DNA of 64,000 bases from Akkermansiaceae bacterium (GTDB lineage Bacteria > Verrucomicrobiota > Verrucomicrobiia > Verrucomicrobiales > Akkermansiaceae): NCBI GenBank assembly GCA_903888515.1, contig CAISTY010000097.1, positions 1 through 64,000 of the forward strand, written 5' to 3'. Below the pieces are notes generated by a model. That model was not told the origin of the DNA. It searched no databases and worked only from the letters and a program-made list of their open reading frames with translations. This document shows positions 31,839-40,942 of the stretch, piece after piece. The translations under genes were made by a program, and so were the position numbers. Position 1 is the first letter of the stretch. Each line of letters opens with the position of its first letter.

Positions 31839-32591
31839 TCAATTGGAAGCAGGCTCGATGGTCGCATTCGCCGGGGACTTCTGTTCTCCAAGAGCGCTGA
31901 TGACGGCAGTTCGGAGGTTGGCGGCGAGGATCCGGTTGCCTTCGTTGTTCGGGTGCATGCCGTCGCCGTCATGCAGATCGCGTCGCAACTGGCCGGCTTG
32001 TGTCAAATTGGAGTGATCGACGAAGGACAGGCGTGGAGAGTTGGCGGCGAGGTGCTGTAACAGGGTGTTCAGCTTTGAAGTCGAGGTGTTTTGGCCGCGC
32101 AGTATATCACGGGCGCCTTCGTCTACCAACGGCACAGAAGAAATTATGACGGGGAGGCGTGAGTCGATGCGTGCGATGATTTTCTCCATGTTCGCGACCA
32201 CGACTTCGGGAGCACGATACGTCAGGTCGTTGCCTCCAATGCAGAGGACCACTGCGGAGGCGCGCTCGAATGCATAGTCTCCCATTCGTTCCAGGACTCC
32301 AACGGTAGTGTCGCCCCCGATGCCGTAGTTCACCGAGGGCTGGATGACCGCATCCACACAGAGGCCCTGGATGATGCTGTCACCAATAAAGAAAACCGAG
32401 CCCTTGGGAACGCGCGCAGTAGAGCGGGAGTGATACGCCCGCATGTCGCGAAAATGTTTGGAAAGTTCCTCGGGATGCGGTTTTCCTGCGAGCTTGGCCA
32501 TAACCCTGGGAATGAAATCGGATTTCCAGAGAATCAGTCCGAGGAGCAAATGCAGTGCGATCAGGTAGGCGATGAGCATCGTGCGTTTCAT
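31839..32591 (-). CDS. SGNH/GDSL hydrolase family protein with N-terminal signal/TM
   Basis: 'SVFFIGDSIIQGLCVDAVIQPSVNYGIGGDTTVGVLERM', 'VVLCIGGNDLTYRAPEVVVANM', 'DGDGMHPNNEGNRILAANLR'. Confidence 0.9.
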   Translation of the reverse strand: MKRTMLIAYLIALHLLLGLILWKSDFIPRVMAKLAGKPHPEELSKHFRDMRAYHSRSTARVPKGSVFFIGDSIIQGLCVDAVIQPSVNYGIGGDTTVGVLERMGDYAFERASAVVLCIGGNDLTYRAPEVVVANMEKIIARIDSRLPVIISSVPLVDEGARDILRGQNTSTSKLNTLLQHLAANSPRLSFVDHSNLTQAGQLRRDLHDGDGMHPNNEGNRILAANLRTAVISALGEQKSPANATIEPASN

Positions 32592-33520
32592 GGTTGCCGG
32601 GGGATGGACTCATCCAGATCGTAACCATAGAGCGCATTGAGTTCACGGCCGCGCCGTTCAAAGTTCTCGAGATCCTGGGCCGTGAGGAGTGCCGGCCATT
32701 CGTTGCGCAATTCGATGGGCCTGTCACCTAGGAGACGGCTGTTGTGGCCGATGATGTGCTGTGGTTCCTGGGTGCTTGGGCTAAGGCAGTGCTCGCTCTG
32801 GTCATCCAGCCCGGAGAACGCCAGAATCTCCGACAGAACACGGCGCGAATCCTGGCAGAAATCCTCATATCGAACTTCCATGAGCCTCATCTTCGGAAGC
32901 ACTTTCCTGAGTCTTTCGCATTCGCTGACCTTGTTTTCCCAAAGATGAAAATTGGCACGCATGTCAGGGTCGCGTTTTTTGTATGAGGCGACAATTGCCC
33001 GGCCGTCCCGGACCAGATAGATCGCCCGGATGTCATAGTGTCCGGTGCGGCTGAGATGCATGAGCCTTGTTGGATCCTTCGAGTCGTCCAGAAACACGGG
33101 CTTCCGCAAGACCTCACAGATTTTGTCGATCACGATCTTGTTGCGCTGATTGATCCTGGCGAGGGCCCGCGCCGCCGGGGGCCAGCAGGTGAAAGCCGCC
33201 CTCCGAAGGCTTTCAAAACCAGGACCACGCATCTGGGCACCGACAACCCGGCTCGCAAAGCTTCCGTTGCTGCCGTAGTGGGTTCCAAAATCCCCGAAAT
33301 CCAATGCAACTCCCTCTTCCGCAAAAGCTGCGGCCACCTGCTTCCAGAACGCGCACTCGAGCAGTTCCGCGCCGCAGCCACATTGGAAGTTCCGGTAGTC
33401 GGGGATCGAGCTCATCTTCAACTCCCCAACCGTGGCAATCTGTGAGTGCCGCGCCAGGATCCTGGTCAGCAGCGTTGAGCCGCAGTGCGCACAGCCCATG
33501 ATGTAGATGAGTTTTCGCAT
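32588..33520 (-). CDS. Sulfotransferase family protein
   Basis: 'IYIMGCAHCGSTLLTRILARHSQIATVGEL' (PAPS 5'-binding-like loop), 'IYLVRDGRAIVASYKKRD'; ends in ATGA overlap with the SGNH gene. Confidence 0.8.
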   Translation of the reverse strand: MRKLIYIMGCAHCGSTLLTRILARHSQIATVGELKMSSIPDYRNFQCGCGAELLECAFWKQVAAAFAEEGVALDFGDFGTHYGSNGSFASRVVGAQMRGPGFESLRRAAFTCWPPAARALARINQRNKIVIDKICEVLRKPVFLDDSKDPTRLMHLSRTGHYDIRAIYLVRDGRAIVASYKKRDPDMRANFHLWENKVSECERLRKVLPKMRLMEVRYEDFCQDSRRVLSEILAFSGLDDQSEHCLSPSTQEPQHIIGHNSRLLGDRPIELRNEWPALLTAQDLENFERRGRELNALYGYDLDESIPRQP

Positions 33521-33530
33521 GGAGAGGAAG

Positions 33531-33738
33531 AGTCTGAAGTCAAAATGTCAAAGGTCGAAGGTCGAGATATTGAAGAGTCGAAGGTCTAAAAGTCAAAGGT
33601 CGAAGGTCGCGAATGGGGAGTGCTTTGCGCGAGGACATTCGCTGATCAATGAAATGCTGAAGGAGACTCCGAAGGGCTGAACGTCATCGACTTTCGGACT
33701 TTCAGACTTTAAGACTTGCGACTTTCCGACTCTTCCCA
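33531..33738. repeat. Family-1 long-hairpin intergenic element, copy 1a
   Basis: Left arm 'gtcaaaggtcgaaggtcgagatattgaagagtcgaaggtctaaaagtcaaaggtcgaaggtcg'; core 'gaatggggagtgctttgcgcgaggacattcgctgatcaatgaaatgctgaaggagactccgaagggctgaacgtcatcg'; right arm 'actttcggactttcagactttaagacttgcgactttccgactctt'. Confidence 0.8.
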
Positions 33739-34850
33739 TTCACCGCGCTTTCAAACATCTCGCGGAATCTGCGGGAAACCTCGGGGATACTGTGATGCGA
33801 TTGGTAGTAGGCGTGCGCGGCGGATGAGTAGCTGGCACGGCGTTGGGGGTTGCCGAGCAGTCCATTGAGCTTGGTGACGAAATCATCCAGATCCCCGGCG
33901 ACTTCGCCGAGGCCGTGGGTAGCGACGACGCCGTCCGGATCGAAGGTGGTGACCACCGGTACTCCGAGACTCCAGGCTTCGAGAAAGGTGGTGGGAAAGC
34001 CTTCCAGTTCAGAGGTGCAAGCCAGCAGGGTGGCACCTGCATAGAGGTTTGCCAGAGTGGAGGCAGGTGCGCGTCCGTGAACCCGCACATTGGGCAAGAG
34101 CCGTGCCTCCTCCATCAGGATTGTGGCGTGTTCGGACTGTTGATTAGGGGTGCCAACGATATCAAACGCCACTTCCGGACAGCGCCTCGCCGCCTCGATC
34201 AGCCAATCCAGCCGCTTGGTCGGCGTGATCCTTCCGACCCACAGGACATGCGGTTTGGTATCCGGCATCGGTTGCCCTGCAGGCGGCAGCACCGCCATGG
34301 GGATGACCGTTGCGTTCCGCCCCGCGGCCGCATGCAACCCTTGCCGCTGCGTTTCAGTCTGGGCGATGATCGGGTTCGCATGATGCAATCCGCAACGATA
34401 TGCCTTTCCTTCGAGTCCCCAGGGACCGGCATTGAGGTGGGCTCCAAAATCGGCATCGCTGGCCAGACAGAATACAAAGGGACGTCCGAGCAACCGGCAT
34501 CCAAGGGCGGTTTGCCCGGTCTCAATTCCCGCACCCATCTGAAGATAAACATCGGCACCCGCCCGCCTCATTGCCCCTAACAGTCCAGTCGTTCGAGGAT
34601 GAATGTTCCTGAGCATGCGGAGTCCCGCATCCGGAGCATGACTCTTGAGCAGTCTAACACCTTCGGATTTCTCATTGTCAGACTGCCCGTGGTCGTAGGT
34701 AATCACTGTGACTTCACAGCCTTGGGAGACCAATCCCCTGGCCAGAGTTGCCAACTGGGTCTCGATCCCGCCGAGATAGCGTGGAATCTCCGCACCGGTG
34801 AGATGATCCAGGCACTTCAGCCCGATGATGCCGATTTTGAGGGAACGCAT
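33702..34850 (-). CDS. Glycosyltransferase family 4
   Basis: 'HVLWVGRITPTKRLDWLIEAARRCPEVAFDIVGTPNQQSEHATILMEEARLLPNVRVHGRAP', 'TSELEGFPTTFLEAWSLGVPVVTTFDPDGV'. Confidence 0.9.
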   Translation of the reverse strand: MRSLKIGIIGLKCLDHLTGAEIPRYLGGIETQLATLARGLVSQGCEVTVITYDHGQSDNEKSEGVRLLKSHAPDAGLRMLRNIHPRTTGLLGAMRRAGADVYLQMGAGIETGQTALGCRLLGRPFVFCLASDADFGAHLNAGPWGLEGKAYRCGLHHANPIIAQTETQRQGLHAAAGRNATVIPMAVLPPAGQPMPDTKPHVLWVGRITPTKRLDWLIEAARRCPEVAFDIVGTPNQQSEHATILMEEARLLPNVRVHGRAPASTLANLYAGATLLACTSELEGFPTTFLEAWSLGVPVVTTFDPDGVVATHGLGEVAGDLDDFVTKLNGLLGNPQRRASYSSAAHAYYQSHHSIPEVSRRFREMFESAVNGKSRKVASLKV

Positions 34851-34852
34851 AG

Positions 34853-35055
34853 ATATAAAGAGTCGAAGGTCTAAAGGTCTTAAAGTCTAAAAGTCGATGA
34901 AGATGAGTCCTTGAGACTCCACTGCGGCTTGCCAGTGACCGGCGAATGCGCTTGCGCAAAGCTCTTCCCATTCTCGACCTTCGACTTTCGACTTTCAGAC
35001 TTTCGACTCTTCATCTTCTCGACTTTCAGACTTTTAGACCTTCGACTTTTAGACT
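34853..35055. repeat. Family-1 long-hairpin intergenic element, copy 1b (core inverted relative to 1a and 1c)
   Basis: Reverse complement of the core reads 'gagaatgggaagagctttgcgcaagcgcattcgccggtcactggcaagccgcagtggagtctcaaggactcatcttcatcg', flanked by 'agtcgaaggtctaaaggtcttaaagtctaaaagtcga' and 'cgactttcagacttttagaccttcgacttttagactc'. Confidence 0.8.
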
Positions 35056-35952
35056 CTATGGATGCGCGAGCATATCGCGGAGTGTGCGCTGGAGGGGTAT
35101 GGTGGGGCTCCATCCGAGTTTCATGAGCGCGTCTGGGTCACCCACGGATCGATCGACGCCACCGCTGTGATACGAAGGGTTTTCCTGGATCCGATCGGCT
35201 TGGCCGGCGAGGGCGGCGAGGCGCTGAACCAAGGTGCGGCTGCGAGTGGAGCGACCGCTACAGACGTTATAGATTTGATAGTTGCGGCCCTTGGTTGCGA
35301 TCAGGCGGTAGGCTTCCACCGCATCCCTGACATCGATGAAATCGCGGAAGGACGAGAGATCTCCGAGGGCAATCGGTTTGTTGCCGGGTTCCCGGAGTTT
35401 CGCGCACAAGGCTCCGGCTAGCAGACGCTGCGGAAGACCGGGACCGAGCAGGTTGAAGGTGCGGGCAATGACGATGCCGACACCGAACTCGCGCCCGCTG
35501 GCAAGGGCGATTTGTTCCTGACCCCACTTCGATCGGCCGTAGGCATTTGCTCCGCCAGAAGGTGCCTTCTCATCGACCTTGGCAGGCGTGGGACGGTAAA
35601 CCGCCGCAGAGCTGGTGATCAGTACCCGAACCCGTTCCGATATGCCGCCGGCAACCGCCTCGATCAGGTTGCGAGTTCCTCCCGCATTGACGTGCCAAAG
35701 TGCCTCCTCGGTGGCAGGTGGGATGGCAGCCGCCAAATGAAATACCCACTGCGGCGGATCGGCTTCCGCCAACTCCTTCACCCGCTGAAAATCGGTTATG
35801 TCGATCGCATGATAATCATCGAGATCACCACGATCCGCCGGACCCCGGTCAAGCCCGATCAAGCGCGAACCGAGTTCCGACCGGCGCAGGTTGGCAGCAA
35901 GATAGCGGGCCGAAAAGCCGGAAGCGCCGGTGATCCAGATGGTTTTGGGCAT
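35056..35952 (-). CDS. NAD-dependent epimerase/dehydratase (SDR)
   Basis: 'MPKTIWITGASGFSARYLAANLRRSELGSRLIGLDRG', 'VLITSSAAVYRPTPAKVDEKAPSGGANAYGRSKWGQEQIAL'; start chosen at 35952. Confidence 0.85.
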   Translation of the reverse strand: MPKTIWITGASGFSARYLAANLRRSELGSRLIGLDRGPADRGDLDDYHAIDITDFQRVKELAEADPPQWVFHLAAAIPPATEEALWHVNAGGTRNLIEAVAGGISERVRVLITSSAAVYRPTPAKVDEKAPSGGANAYGRSKWGQEQIALASGREFGVGIVIARTFNLLGPGLPQRLLAGALCAKLREPGNKPIALGDLSSFRDFIDVRDAVEAYRLIATKGRNYQIYNVCSGRSTRSRTLVQRLAALAGQADRIQENPSYHSGGVDRSVGDPDALMKLGWSPTIPLQRTLRDMLAHP

Positions 35953-35953
35953 G

Positions 35954-36685
35954 CTAATGATTGAGATATGCCTTTTCGTCACGCTCGAATTCTTCCTGGG
36001 CGAGGGCGTAGTCGTCCAGGCGGCCGATGTCGAGCCAGCGGCAGGCTTGGCGGAAGCAGGCGACTTTTCCGCCGGTTTGATGGACCTTGAGCACGAGATC
36101 CGGCATGTCGAGTCGCTGGGCGGGAAGCACATGCTTGAGTGCTCCCGCGCCAATCACGTTGACCCCCATGCTGACATCAAAGTGGAAGGTCGGCTTCTCG
36201 CGGAAACCCACGAACTCGCCGGATTGCCCGGAGTCCACGACCCCGAAATCGATTTTCACTTCCCGAGGAAACACCCCGACCGTTAGATCGGCCTGTTGTT
36301 CACAGTGATAGCGGATCATCTCGGCGAAGTTGAGGGTCGTCAGCAGGTCGCCGTTCATCACAATCACCGGATCGGTCAGGTTGCTGAGCAAGGATAAGGG
36401 TCCCGCAGTTCCCAGTGGCTCATCCTCGCCAACGTAGTCGATCTGGAGCCCGAAACGGCTGCCATCGCTGCAGACCGCCTTGATCAACTCGGCAAGGTAA
36501 CCGGTCGAGATGGTGACATCGACGAAGCCGGCCTGCGCCAGGCGTTGTAGCAGAATCTCGATGATCGCCTTGTTTCCCAGCGGCACCAGTGGCTTCGGGA
36601 AAACCGCGGTGAGAGGCCGCAGCCGGGTCCCCTTGCCGCCGGCAAGGATCACCGCCCGGACGTTGCGAATATCTTCGGTATTCAT
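35954..36685 (-). CDS. Nucleotidyltransferase (NDP-sugar pyrophosphorylase-like)
   Basis: 'AVILAGGKGTRLRPLTAVFPKPLVPLGNKAIIEILLQRLAQAGFVDVTISTGYLAELI', 'VIVMNGDLLTTLNF'. Confidence 0.9.
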   Translation of the reverse strand: MNTEDIRNVRAVILAGGKGTRLRPLTAVFPKPLVPLGNKAIIEILLQRLAQAGFVDVTISTGYLAELIKAVCSDGSRFGLQIDYVGEDEPLGTAGPLSLLSNLTDPVIVMNGDLLTTLNFAEMIRYHCEQQADLTVGVFPREVKIDFGVVDSGQSGEFVGFREKPTFHFDVSMGVNVIGAGALKHVLPAQRLDMPDLVLKVHQTGGKVACFRQACRWLDIGRLDDYALAQEEFERDEKAYLNH

Positions 36686-36687
36686 AG

Positions 36688-36898
36688 AAGTCTAAAAGTC
36701 GAACGTCTAAAAGTCGAAGGTCTAAAAGTCTAAGGTCGGAAGATTAGAAGTCGAAGGTCTAAAAGTCTAAAAGTCGAAGGTCGAGAATGAGGGGTGCTTT
36801 GCGCGGAGGCATTCGCTAGTCCATGGCATGCTGAAGTGGTTTCCGAAGGGCTCGTCTTCATCGACTTTCAGACTTTCGACTTTCAGACCTTCAGACTT
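36688..36898. repeat. Family-1 long-hairpin intergenic element, copy 1c
   Basis: Left arm 'aagtctaaaagtcgaacgtctaaaagtcgaaggtctaaaagtctaaggtcggaagattagaagtcgaaggtctaaaagtctaaaagtcgaaggtcg'; core 'agaatgaggggtgctttgcgcggaggcattcgctagtccatggcatgctgaagtggtttccgaagggctcgtcttcatcg'; right arm 'actttcagactttcgactttcagaccttcagac'. Confidence 0.85.
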
Positions 36899-37876
36899 TT
36901 ATACAACATATCCCCGGTTGACGTAGTCCTGGGGATGGTTTTTGATGTGTTCGAAGGTTGCAACCAGTCCCTCGTCGAGGCTGACTTTCGGTTCCCATTC
37001 CATCAACTTCTTGGCTCGGCGGTTATCGCTGATCAGGCGCTGGACCTCACTGCCCTCGGGGCGGATTCGCTGGTCCTGTTGCTCGACGTTGAACTCGCGG
37101 CCGGCGATCCGGCCGATTTTGGTGACCAGTTCGCGGATCGAGACTCCTGAGCCCACGCCGAGATTGACGGTGTGGCCGATGACCCGCTCCGACCGGGCCG
37201 CCGCGAGGAATCCGGCGGCGGTGTCGGTGACAAAGGTCAGATCCCGGACTGGATCGAGATTCCCAAGCTTAAGCTCATTTCCCGCAATGGCCTGGGTCAT
37301 GATCGTCGGAATGATCGCACGCTGGCTTTGGCGCGGACCATAGGTATTGAAGGGACGCACGATGGTCGTCGGCATCTTGAAACTCAGCCAATAGCTTTCC
37401 GCCAACTTGTCAGCTCCGATCTTGGTCGCCGAATACGGCGACTGTCCGACCAGCGGGTGATTCTCGTCGATCGGCACATACTGGGCCGAACCATAGGTCT
37501 CGCTGGTTGAAGTGTGCAGCATGCGTTCCACTCCGTGCTGACGGCAGGCATCGAGCACGTTCAGCGTGCCAATGACGTTGGTCTGCACATACGATGAGGG
37601 TGCGACATAAGAGTAGGGAATCCCGATCAGCGCCGCGAGGTGAAACACCCAGTCGCAGCCGGCCACCGCTTTGGTGACGGATCCGGCGTCGGCGATGTCG
37701 CCAGGCACGATTTCGATCGCTTCACGGATTTCATCGGCAACATGTTCCAGATGATGCCACTTGCCTTGGGAATTGTAGTGGACGAAGGCACGGACACGGT
37801 AACCCTCGCGGACCAACAATTCAACAAGGTGGCTGCCGATGAAGCCGGCACCGCCGGTAATCAAAACGGATTTCAT
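36899..37876 (-). CDS. NAD-dependent 4,6-dehydratase (LegB-like SDR)
   Basis: 'MKSVLITGGAGFIGSHLVELLVREGYRVRAFVHYNSQGKWHHLEHV', 'IPYSYVAPSSYVQTNVIGTLNVLDACRQHGVERMLHTSTSETYGSAQYVPIDENHPLVGQSPYSATKIGADKLAES', 'RPFNTYGPRQSQRAIIPTIMTQ'. Confidence 0.88.
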   Translation of the reverse strand: MKSVLITGGAGFIGSHLVELLVREGYRVRAFVHYNSQGKWHHLEHVADEIREAIEIVPGDIADAGSVTKAVAGCDWVFHLAALIGIPYSYVAPSSYVQTNVIGTLNVLDACRQHGVERMLHTSTSETYGSAQYVPIDENHPLVGQSPYSATKIGADKLAESYWLSFKMPTTIVRPFNTYGPRQSQRAIIPTIMTQAIAGNELKLGNLDPVRDLTFVTDTAAGFLAAARSERVIGHTVNLGVGSGVSIRELVTKIGRIAGREFNVEQQDQRIRPEGSEVQRLISDNRRAKKLMEWEPKVSLDEGLVATFEHIKNHPQDYVNRGYVV

Positions 37877-37919
37877 GGGTAGTGTGGTGTTAGGAGAAGA
37901 AGTCGGAAATCTCCTGGCT

Positions 37920-39365
37920 TCATCCTTGGTAGGACACCCGTTCCGGTTGCAAACTCTCATCGGCAATAGTCCAAGACTCTTCTCTATCAGAATCTAAAGA
38001 GGCATCCTCCGGGAAAACCGGCCCCCCATCGACGGTGTTCTCGCGCTGGACCCAAACGCGGAGTGCGACAGCCAGAGCTGCCCACATCGGAACCACTCCT
38101 TCACGGGGATAGAATGTCTGGGCGCCCAATCCGGCAATCAGGAGCGCCAGCAAAAGAGCCAGCGCCACCCCACCGGTCACTTCGAAAACCATGTCCTCTC
38201 GATCACGGAATAAACCGTAGCTGCGTGTCAGCAGCAGCCAGAAAATCGGCAGGCCGCACAGAAATCCGAGAATGCCATTGTCGAGAAGATACTCCAGATA
38301 TGCATTGTGTGGATGGCCGAATTCTTCGCTGAGACTGTCGAGAAGCCAAGCTGCAAGACCGGTCCGTTGCATAGCATTTCGACCATGTCCGACCACCGGA
38401 GACTTTTCAATTTCCTGGATGACATAGGGCCAGATCCGGCTCCGGCCGGCCGTTATCTCGCTGTCATCAGTGTTGCTGACAAAGTTGCCTTCTGTCTTGC
38501 CGAAACCTTGGAACATCCGATCCCGGACCGCCGGAACGAAGATCACAACGACTGCCACAGCCAAGGGGATCAGAGGCAATAGTTTCCGCCATTTTACCAC
38601 ACACAGGGTCAGACCGATCAACCCCCAGGTGGCGTAGCCGGTGCGTCCGCCTGTCACCGCCTGTCCCAGCAGAATCACCCCCGAGGCACCGCAAAGCATC
38701 AACTTCACCGCCCAGCGCTTGAAATAGAATGAGAAGGCAATCACTGCCCAGCCCGCGCCAGCGAGCATCATCGACAAATCCACCCGATGGTAGCCCACGT
38801 CCTTAGCCAGTCGTCGTGCAGCGCGTGCGCTCAATTCGTCACCGGATGAAAGGTCGAAATGCAAGCCCATTGATTTGATCGAGAGCAGCGCAAGGATGAA
38901 ATAAACCGAAAGGATCGCGGCGAGCGCGATGAATACCCGATCACGGGTTCGACAGCCGTCGTATAACATCAGCGCGGGCAGCAAGAACTTCAGGGGATTG
39001 ATGAAATAATCGAGAAACAGATCAAGGCGTGTTCCCACATAGAAGGAAGATGGATCGATGAATGCCCTGAGAAAGGCCAGCACCAGCACCGTTACAAAGA
39101 GCCATAATGCGGTCTTCACCCCCCTAGGAATATCCCACTCGCTTCCCTCCTCCGCCAGCTGACTGAGCCATGCAAAACCGATGCTGAGAAACAGGAGGTT
39201 CCACAGATTCAGACCGGGGACTCCCGCAATCCTGCGCGGCATGTCGGGATGCTCGAGGAAGGCAAAGAGCACAATCCCGCCAAGCAGCGCGTTAAACCAA
39301 TTTCTCCACGCGTATCCTGCCAGAAACAGGACGACCAGCGTCATGACGGTGATGCGGATGGACAT
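37920..39365 (-). CDS. O-antigen ligase/polymerase (Wzy-type) membrane protein
   Basis: Multiple TM helices; 'TGGRTGYATWGLIGLTLCVVKWRKLLPLIPLAVAVVVIFVPAVRDRMFQGF', 'GHGRNAMQRTGLAAWLLDSLSEEFGHPHNAYLEYLLDNGILGFLCGLPIFWLL'. Confidence 0.88.
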   Translation of the reverse strand: MSIRITVMTLVVLFLAGYAWRNWFNALLGGIVLFAFLEHPDMPRRIAGVPGLNLWNLLFLSIGFAWLSQLAEEGSEWDIPRGVKTALWLFVTVLVLAFLRAFIDPSSFYVGTRLDLFLDYFINPLKFLLPALMLYDGCRTRDRVFIALAAILSVYFILALLSIKSMGLHFDLSSGDELSARAARRLAKDVGYHRVDLSMMLAGAGWAVIAFSFYFKRWAVKLMLCGASGVILLGQAVTGGRTGYATWGLIGLTLCVVKWRKLLPLIPLAVAVVVIFVPAVRDRMFQGFGKTEGNFVSNTDDSEITAGRSRIWPYVIQEIEKSPVVGHGRNAMQRTGLAAWLLDSLSEEFGHPHNAYLEYLLDNGILGFLCGLPIFWLLLTRSYGLFRDREDMVFEVTGGVALALLLALLIAGLGAQTFYPREGVVPMWAALAVALRVWVQRENTVDGGPVFPEDASLDSDREESWTIADESLQPERVSYQG

Positions 39366-39710
39366 GGGCGGAGAGAGGTGTTTCGGTTGCGGCTGCGCCG
39401 TTCGGTGTTTCGGTGGGGAGAAAGGGTCGGTCGCTTCGCACTGGTTCTTTCTCTATTCTCCTGCCGATCTACCGAAACACTGGCAGCGCAGCCGTACTGC
39501 AACACTGAGACGGAGGACAGAAGTCAGAAGTCGGAGGTCGGAAGTCAGGTATCAGGAGACAGGACGCGCCGGTCACACCGATGACCGTAAAGCCACAGCT
39601 GAACTGCGTCGTGGTTCATGCTATCATATCCGACACGCTGCCGCCTATGGTCGATTCCGCCAAAACGGGCGGAAAACCTGCGGCAATGGAAAAAAAGGAT
39701 AACGACCGAG

Positions 39711-39823: not shown

Positions 39824-40942
39824 TCATCGGGCGTTATGCAGCAATTCGTGGACGATGCGCCCGGCGGTGTGGCCGTCCCACAGCGGCGGGGTTGCGCCGA
39901 GGCGTTCCGGTGCGGCGAGCAGTTGGATGATATCGTCGCGTAGGGTGGCCACCGATGTGAGGCGGTTGCTGCCGACGGTGATGGTGATCGGACGTTCGGT
40001 GTTCGGCCGCAGGGTGAGGCAGGGGGTGCGGAAGTAGGTGCTCTCTTCCTGTAGGCCGCCGGAGTCGGTGAGCAGGAAGCGCGCGTGTCGTGTTAGATTC
40101 AGCGAGTCGAGGTACCCGAGCGGTTCGAGCGTGCGCACGCCCGGATGGGCGTCGAAGCTAAGGCCAAACTCGGCCATCCGCCCGCGGGTCCGCGGATGGA
40201 TTGGAAAGAGGATCGTCCACTGCCCGGACAAGCTGGTGAGTTCGCGAACGATCACTTCGAGATTTTCGCGGGTGTCCACATTCGACGGACGGTGCAGGGT
40301 CACGTAAACGAAGCGGCCTTGTTGCAGACCCAGACGCTCTAGGGTATTGGCACCTGCCGCCTGGTCGAGTTGATCGATCAACGAGTCGATCATCACATTG
40401 CCAACGCAGCGGATTTTTTTCTCGTCCACTCCTTCGCGGCGCAGGTTGTCGTTGCCGTCGGTCGAGGGAGTGAGCAGCAGGTCGGCAAGCGCATCGGTGA
40501 CGAGGCGGTTGAGTTCCTCGGGCATGCCGCGGTCAAAGCTGCGCAGGCCGGCCTCGATGTGAGCCACCGGGATGCCGAGTTTGGCCGCCACCAAGGTGCA
40601 GGCCATGGTGGAATTGACGTCGCCCACGACCACCACCCAGTCGGGGTTTTCCCGCAAACACACCGGCTCGAAGGCGAGCATGATGTTAGCGGTCTGCGCG
40701 GCATGGGAGCCCGAGCCGATTTCGAGGTTGTCATCCGGTGCCGGAATCCCCAGCTCCTGGAAAAACACTCCTGACATCTTCTCATCATAATGCTGGCCGG
40801 TGTGGACGAGGCGGAAATTGATTTTCCTGCCGCCGCCGTTGCCTGCGGAGTTATGTGCCCGGATCGCATGGATCACCGGAGCGATCTTCATGAAATTCGG
40901 ACGCGCACCGGCAACCAGCAGCAGTTTCAGGGGCTTGGTCAT
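39824..40942 (-). CDS. wecB: UDP-N-acetylglucosamine 2-epimerase (non-hydrolysing; WecB/WbpI-like)
   Basis: 'LLLVAGARPNFMKIAPVIHAIRAH', 'LVHTGQHYDEKMSGVFFQELGIP', 'PVAHIEAGLRSFDRGMPEELNRLVTDALADLLLTPS', 'LLTDSGGLQEESTYFRTPCLTLRPNTERP'. Confidence 0.95.
   Translation of the reverse strand: MTKPLKLLLVAGARPNFMKIAPVIHAIRAHNSAGNGGGRKINFRLVHTGQHYDEKMSGVFFQELGIPAPDDNLEIGSGSHAAQTANIMLAFEPVCLRENPDWVVVVGDVNSTMACTLVAAKLGIPVAHIEAGLRSFDRGMPEELNRLVTDALADLLLTPSTDGNDNLRREGVDEKKIRCVGNVMIDSLIDQLDQAAGANTLERLGLQQGRFVYVTLHRPSNVDTRENLEVIVRELTSLSGQWTILFPIHPRTRGRMAEFGLSFDAHPGVRTLEPLGYLDSLNLTRHARFLLTDSGGLQEESTYFRTPCLTLRPNTERPITITVGSNRLTSVATLRDDIIQLLAAPERLGATPPLWDGHTAGRIVHELLHNAR

Follow-up and report, generated by a model that had tools for sequence, protein, structure and literature searches.

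Proteins of the S23/IVP 'four helix bundle' family (PF05635 / TIGR02436) are numerous, and to our knowledge no function is known for them. Intervening sequences (IVSs) of 23S rRNA occur at helix 9, helix 25 or helix 45. IVSs that bear an S23 gene, as in Coxiella and Leptospira, are excised from bacterial 23S rRNA by RNase III; they are sporadic, horizontally spread and have been called selfish, and the S23 protein of Xanthomonas is a toroidal homopentamer (PMC4990558). Heptamer direct repeats are a further described system, and include TAACTGA in Beggiatoaceae, Cyanobacteria and Bacteroidetes and the short tandemly repeated repetitive sequences (STRRs) of cyanobacteria (PMC4679880). The present analysis concerns three hairpin elements of ~200 bp each, elements 1 to 3, which sit in spacers between same-strand genes of an Akkermansiaceae bacterium (GenBank assembly GCA_903888515.1) within positions 1 to 64,000 of contig CAISTY010000097.1, a stretch of 64,000 nucleotides referred to as the window. 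Elements of this kind hold a payload between inverted arrays of ~7-nt units: an S23 gene in some copies and, in the window, a non-coding core of ~78 bp. The architecture, the dispersal of the copies, an empty site, a nested insertion and composites with S23 genes are observed directly, and elements 1 to 3 are interpreted, with moderate confidence, as solo, non-autonomous members, similar to miniature inverted-repeat transposable elements (MITEs), of a class of S23/IVP-linked mobile hairpin cassettes that settle in operon spacers. They are filed as solo relatives rather than as full members because no S23 gene was found in the window, while a related genome, G026, has this hairpin on both sides of an S23 gene.

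Architecture, dispersal and an empty site

An earlier note, made from the letters of this DNA alone, had described three copies with one architecture, and the elements are present as described, each consisting of exactly 78 bp of core between a GTC array on the left and a GAC array on the right. Element 1 (33531–33738, + strand) is composed of a GTC array at 33531–33610, a core at 33611–33688 and a GAC array at 33689–33738, and element 3 (36686–36903, + strand) of a GTC array at 36686–36784, a core at 36785–36862 and a GAC array at 36863–36903. Element 2 (34853–35055, − strand) is inverted relative to the other two, in agreement with the inverted core that the earlier note reported for copy 1b, and carries its GTC array at 34974–35055, read on the − strand, its core at 34896–34973 and its GAC array at 34853–34895. 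The GTC arrays are built from units of 7–8 nt (GTCGAAG, GTCTAAAA and GTCTGAAA), the number and order of which vary freely between copies. For one unit pair, 13 near-matches to the GTC unit pattern occur in the window, where 0.05 are expected, and chains of at least four GTC or GAC units at 7–8-nt spacing number 49 in 802 kb of the bacterium's own genome and 0 in Markov shuffles.

Evidence that such an element behaves as a unit comes from L151, an independently assembled metagenome-assembled genome (MAG) from Lake Pavin, which is syntenic with window positions 32611–39377 at 75–87% identity. Spacer 2 is empty in L151, its epimerase and glycosyltransferase genes meeting in an ATGA overlap, and in the window element 2 starts just past the stop codon and ends just ahead of the start codon; this empty-site ortholog shows insertion or loss as a unit. 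Element 3 is present in L151, with its core split by the nested insertion of another repeat, and the core is 87% identical between the two genomes, like the genes. Element 1 is identical to the L151 spacer at 206 of 208 positions, compared with 86.7% identity for the neighbouring glycosyltransferase gene (24% divergence at third codon positions). Because element 3 is no more conserved than the genes, this identity speaks for a recent exchange or for re-insertion more than for a general constraint, and a constraint on element 1 itself is possible. Another repeat (aggctttggactgcggcgg...aaagcggtgatgcgccgc) is nested in or beside core-A elements at L151 3716–4011 and L067 1165–1290.

Searches of the own genome by BLASTN and by pattern located homologous cores on two other contigs, C104 and C109, and core-less arms elsewhere (gene names at these two loci and at the cysD–cysN, metK–ahcY and gyrB–gyrA loci below were read from translations). 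On C104 (L071 1–900), four to five tandem core-B hairpins, ~180–187 bp apart, lie at the contig end and adjoin an rfbH-like gene; the C109 core copy adjoins a glucose-1-phosphate cytidylyltransferase-like gene. The covariance-model search that had been proposed was carried out with a model from ten copies rather than three, and gave strong scores in 5 of 244 genomes of the family. Since these all belong to one genus, in which the core also occurs in four other species (G026, G001, G241 and G264), the core is young and narrow in range, and the arms are wide. Further copies, named beforehand as support for a real element, do occur in this genome and its relatives, the named relatives being Akkermansiaceae MAGs. 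The core is found in both orientations relative to transcription, element 2 and the G241 copy being opposite to the rest. A scan of genome contigs returned 18 matches, mostly by chance, the real ones being L148, L149, L151 and L156, and no DNA match to the element was found among phages and plasmids.

Inverted heptad arrays around S23 genes

An S23 gene, assigned by PF05635 and TIGR02436, stands between cysD and cysN in G026, with a core-bearing hairpin of the window's own family on each side and both hairpins pointing the same way. The earlier note was right that the window holds a real dispersed element of one architecture, and missed both this S23-flanking hairpin and the general association of S23 genes with inverted heptad arrays. 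Comparable arrangements with other unit sequences recur: an S23 gene is enclosed by two arms between cysD and cysN in G001, G013, G011 and G015, between metK and ahcY in six genomes, the own genome included, and between gyrB and gyrA in the own genome. On contig C217 of the own genome, an S23-like gene is bordered on both sides by hairpins with ATCAAAA/ATCATAA arms and a core unrelated to that of the window; the two hairpins share 77% identity. The S23 proteins match PDB 2gsc. Arm units differ among S23 loci (GTCTAAA, GACGCAA, GACCAGA, GTCATTG, GACTCCC), and the two arms of a locus score 23.4 with each other versus 15.5 when swapped between loci (p 0.0005, which, as for all p-values at S23 loci, is optimistic because the loci are not phylogenetically independent).

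The association was quantified with a sequence-blind inverted-repeat score of the flanks, at thresholds of at least 20 and at least 25. In a genus-level sample, inverted flanks are found at 41/61 S23 genes at the lower threshold and 27/61 at the higher, compared with 5/321 and 4/321 control open reading frames (ORFs) of similar size from the own genome, some of which are themselves S23 genes. In other families of Verrucomicrobiota, 22/30 S23 genes reach a score of 20, versus 4/59 shifted controls. The flanks of S23 genes show a 7-nt period, with maxima at lags 7 and 14 whatever the sequence; this period is absent from the flanks of GxxExxY genes and hardly visible in controls. In the genus-level sample, S23 lies on the strand of its co-directional neighbours at 40/41 loci.

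The pattern extends to plasmids of Cyanobacteria, Bacteroidota, Alphaproteobacteria and Gemmatimonadota, where 7/10 S23 loci have inverted flanks beyond the 99th percentile of shuffles, mostly with period 7; the hosts of S23 genes inside such arrays include Riemerella, Azospirillum and cyanobacteria. GGGAGTA/TACTCCC arms surround S23 between two ribonucleotide reductase genes on a Nostoc edaphicum plasmid, and GTGACAG/CTGTCAC arms surround S23 between cas6 and cas4 on a plasmid of Anabaena sp. 90. On two cyanobacterial plasmids, S23 is not on the strand of its neighbours. S23 lies between cas genes at three cyanobacterial plasmid loci (L344, L345 and L349; cas6–S23–cas4 and cas10–S23–cmr3), two of which have clearly inverted arrays.

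The cysD–cysN spacer is an insertion hot spot, measuring 1–123 bp in many genomes and 300–1200 bp in others, as in the own genome G000 (L184), G005, G017 and G023. Long spacers carry an S23 gene or a nucleotidyltransferase-like ORF without a Pfam hit, with different short-unit arms. In G026, G011, G015 and G147 the insert opens with the final bases of cysD in inverted orientation (GGGCTATTTTTGAC..GTCAAAAATAGCCC); such starts are seen at L043 ~925–955, L124, L115 and L198, and this recurrent duplication hints at foldback synthesis.

Gene setting, RNA folding and competing explanations

All genes flanking elements 1 to 3 are − strand members of an exopolysaccharide cluster. Downstream of element 1 is a sulfotransferase-family gene (32588–33520; Pfam Sulfotransfer_3), and on its other side lies a glycosyltransferase family 4-like gene (33702–34850; Pfam Glycos_transf_1, ORF list). 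As the last ~12 codons of the latter enter element 1, spacer 1 is not wholly non-coding; the elements do fill their spacers, as had been noted, and spacer 1 is partly coding. Beyond element 2 lie an NAD-dependent epimerase gene (35056–36153, the longest ORF, with a likely ATG start near 35953; Pfam Epimerase) and a sugar nucleotidyltransferase gene (35954–36685; Pfam NTP_transferase), and beyond element 3 a GDP-mannose 4,6-dehydratase-like or epimerase gene (36899–37966; Pfam GDP_Man_Dehyd). The chain scan also found a GTC-type heptad array of another unit family (GTCAGAAGTCGGAGGTCGGAAGTC) at 39523–39546 (+ strand), in the spacer before the gene at 39824–40942.

Predicted RNA folds agree with the long hairpin foreseen for any transcript, being exceptional for elements 2 and 3 (z −6.5 and −4.6 relative to shuffles) and modest for element 1, which reaches only z −1.95 owing to an unpaired stretch in its left arm. 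The CGAATG...CATTCG inversion reported within the core is real, with 96% of cells paired in 10 sequences and one pair with a compensatory change, and weak as structural evidence: the inner arm and the core hairpin together have two pairs changed on both sides, a count reached by 29/500 shuffles. Compensatory changes at these two helices and in the arms (permutation p 0.9) do not establish an RNA structure. RNAalifold gives no convincing structure for the core. No known RNA family or terminator was recognised, with no Rfam covariance-model match up to E 0.1 and no intrinsic terminator site, defined as a G+C stem followed by a T run, inside elements 1 to 3. The core was also considered as coding sequence, since four copies are open in one frame (for example VDEDEPFGNHFSMPWTSECLRAKHPSFST in copy 3), and rejected on a stop in G001 and an indel in core B.

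These results bear on what the elements might do for the host or owe to passive processes. Intercistronic elements that cleave the polycistronic exopolysaccharide mRNA or make it more stable, and thereby set the ratio of gene products, would explain the positions between co-directional genes, the near identity of element 1 next to a diverged gene, and the folding of elements 2 and 3 far beyond shuffles. Such a host-useful role is nevertheless unlikely, given that element 2 is absent in L151, that element 3 has a core no better conserved than the genes and interrupted by an insertion in that genome, that the core stands in both orientations relative to transcription, and that the arms show no copy-specific covariation. 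Passive expansion, with replication slippage and template switching in hairpins, spread by recombination alone and no part played by S23 or RNA, is also improbable, if by a shade less so. It accounts for the free variation in unit number and order, for the interchangeable arms and for the inserts that begin with an inverted end of the upstream gene cysD, as foldback synthesis gives; however, a conserved 78-bp core at distant loci and in several species calls for whole-unit copying, and S23 genes flanked across phyla by matching arms of fixed 7-nt period are left unexplained.

Mobilisation by a Y1 transposase, as for repetitive extragenic palindromes (REPs) and their associated tyrosine transposases (RAYTs), has little to recommend it. 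Several Y1_Tnp-like ORFs are present in the own genome, and REPs are likewise intergenic palindromes and are known in the Planctomycetes–Verrucomicrobia–Chlamydiae (PVC) superphylum (PMC3733652), but a coarse check found heptad arms at 0/10 Y1 loci, and at the single locus with a high inverted-repeat score the sequence is unrelated; in addition, the size, tandem arms and 78-bp core are unlike palindromes of 20–40 bp of the GTAG/CGTC type. Least credible of all is locally amplified low-complexity DNA or an assembly artefact. The units are simple, the assembly is fragmented and the array on C104 stands at the end of its contig, yet the same spacer content recurs in the independently assembled L151; this syntenic relative, together with the copies in several other genomes, refutes local low-complexity DNA.

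Several findings, in addition to the non-independence of the S23 loci, weigh against the interpretation of elements 1 to 3 as solo members of an S23-linked cassette class. Co-directional neighbours at S23 loci (41/50) are barely more frequent than in the background (158/204). An S23 gene with GTC-family arms was not found in the own genome, only in relatives, and most heptad arrays of the own genome have no adjoining S23 gene. No clear target-site duplication is seen at spacer 2 in the comparison with L151, the flanks being too diverged to judge. The arms do remain complementary, as the earlier note held, but not in a copy-specific manner: arms swapped between GTC-family copies pair equally well, so that pairing follows from the shared unit vocabulary and is no evidence of selection on each hairpin, and selection on the RNA hairpin as such is no more than possible. 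Inverted arms are, moreover, not exclusive to S23, because GxxExxY (PF13366/TIGR04256) genes lie in inverted arms of another unit length, with inverted flanks at 25/29 loci and a weak period of 9 nt rather than 7 nt. Such GxxExxY arms, for example GAACCGCCAAGACGCCAAGCGCGCCAAG, occur between pheS and pheT in the own genome (L223 7753–8142, corresponding to G000 C22:47753–48142) and at L272–L301.

If elements 1 to 3 are solo relatives of S23-bearing cassettes, they could have arisen by S23-dependent spread in trans, with the S23 protein as a candidate binder of the arrays, or alternatively by recombination between two direct hairpins flanking an S23 gene, in the manner of a solo long terminal repeat (LTR). 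Transcription of the arms would yield a long stem of double-stranded RNA, which RNase III could cut between cistrons as it does in S23-bearing IVSs; this may be why insertion is tolerated. A broader proposal, regarded here as doubtful, is that S23/IVP proteins define a transposase-free class of mobile DNA in several phyla, in which the pentamer would recognise, and may also contribute to making, inverted arrays whose 7-nt period rather than sequence is conserved, the rRNA IVS being a special case and the solo hairpins non-autonomous offspring. The constant genomic signature, arrays that are inverted and repeat every 7 nt whatever their sequence, gives the S23 family a testable role and, if the proposal is true, would connect the puzzle of fragmented 23S rRNA with the usually dismissed short repeats of environmental genomes. 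A further prediction is that, in these bacteria, operon transcripts are cleaved at the inserted hairpins, in the gaps between cistrons; such hairpins may also help to shuffle exopolysaccharide genes.

Comparison with known systems

The S23-bearing IVS of 23S rRNA shares with the present class an S23 gene set within inverted repeats able to form a long stem, and an S23 gene that reads in the direction of the host transcript (PMC4990558). In contrast to the IVS, elements 1 to 3 are located outside rRNA, between exopolysaccharide genes, and the heptad class has arrays of 7-nt units of family-specific sequence, with many copies lacking S23 and some carrying a core. The resemblance to MITEs and to solo LTR-like remnants lies in short, non-coding, dispersed elements with terminal inverted repeats, in presence or absence at the orthologous spacer 2 of L151, and in the same hairpin flanking a gene-bearing relative. 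Unlike MITEs, the elements have variable-length arms of tandem short units and no defined terminal repeat; no clear target-site duplication was found and no transposase is known. Their ends are common to the S23-bearing composite in G026, S23 not being a known transposase.

Heptamer direct repeats are similar in forming intergenic arrays of 7-nt units near start codons, and differ in that they are direct, with one indirect pair reported, lack a core and have not been described around S23 genes (PMC4679880). The GTAG/CGTC REPs with their RAYTs are likewise repeated intergenic palindromes that are possibly transcribed, and are distinguished by a length of 20–40 bp, tetranucleotide tags and the lack of heptad arms (PMC3733652); the Y1 genes of the own genome have no such flanks. 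No paper that describes S23 genes within inverted heptad arrays was found in a search outside which most subscription journals lay, so that absence is not proof. The statement that no described repeat class could be recognised is upheld by the lack of an Rfam match and of any paper found on the class. A reading that goes beyond selfish hairpin elements, in which S23 would define a new class of mobile DNA, is possible and to be taken tentatively. The full feature set is absent from each of the IVSs, MITEs, heptamer direct repeats and REPs, and the elements are regarded as a kind of selfish hairpin element whose class is apparently undescribed.

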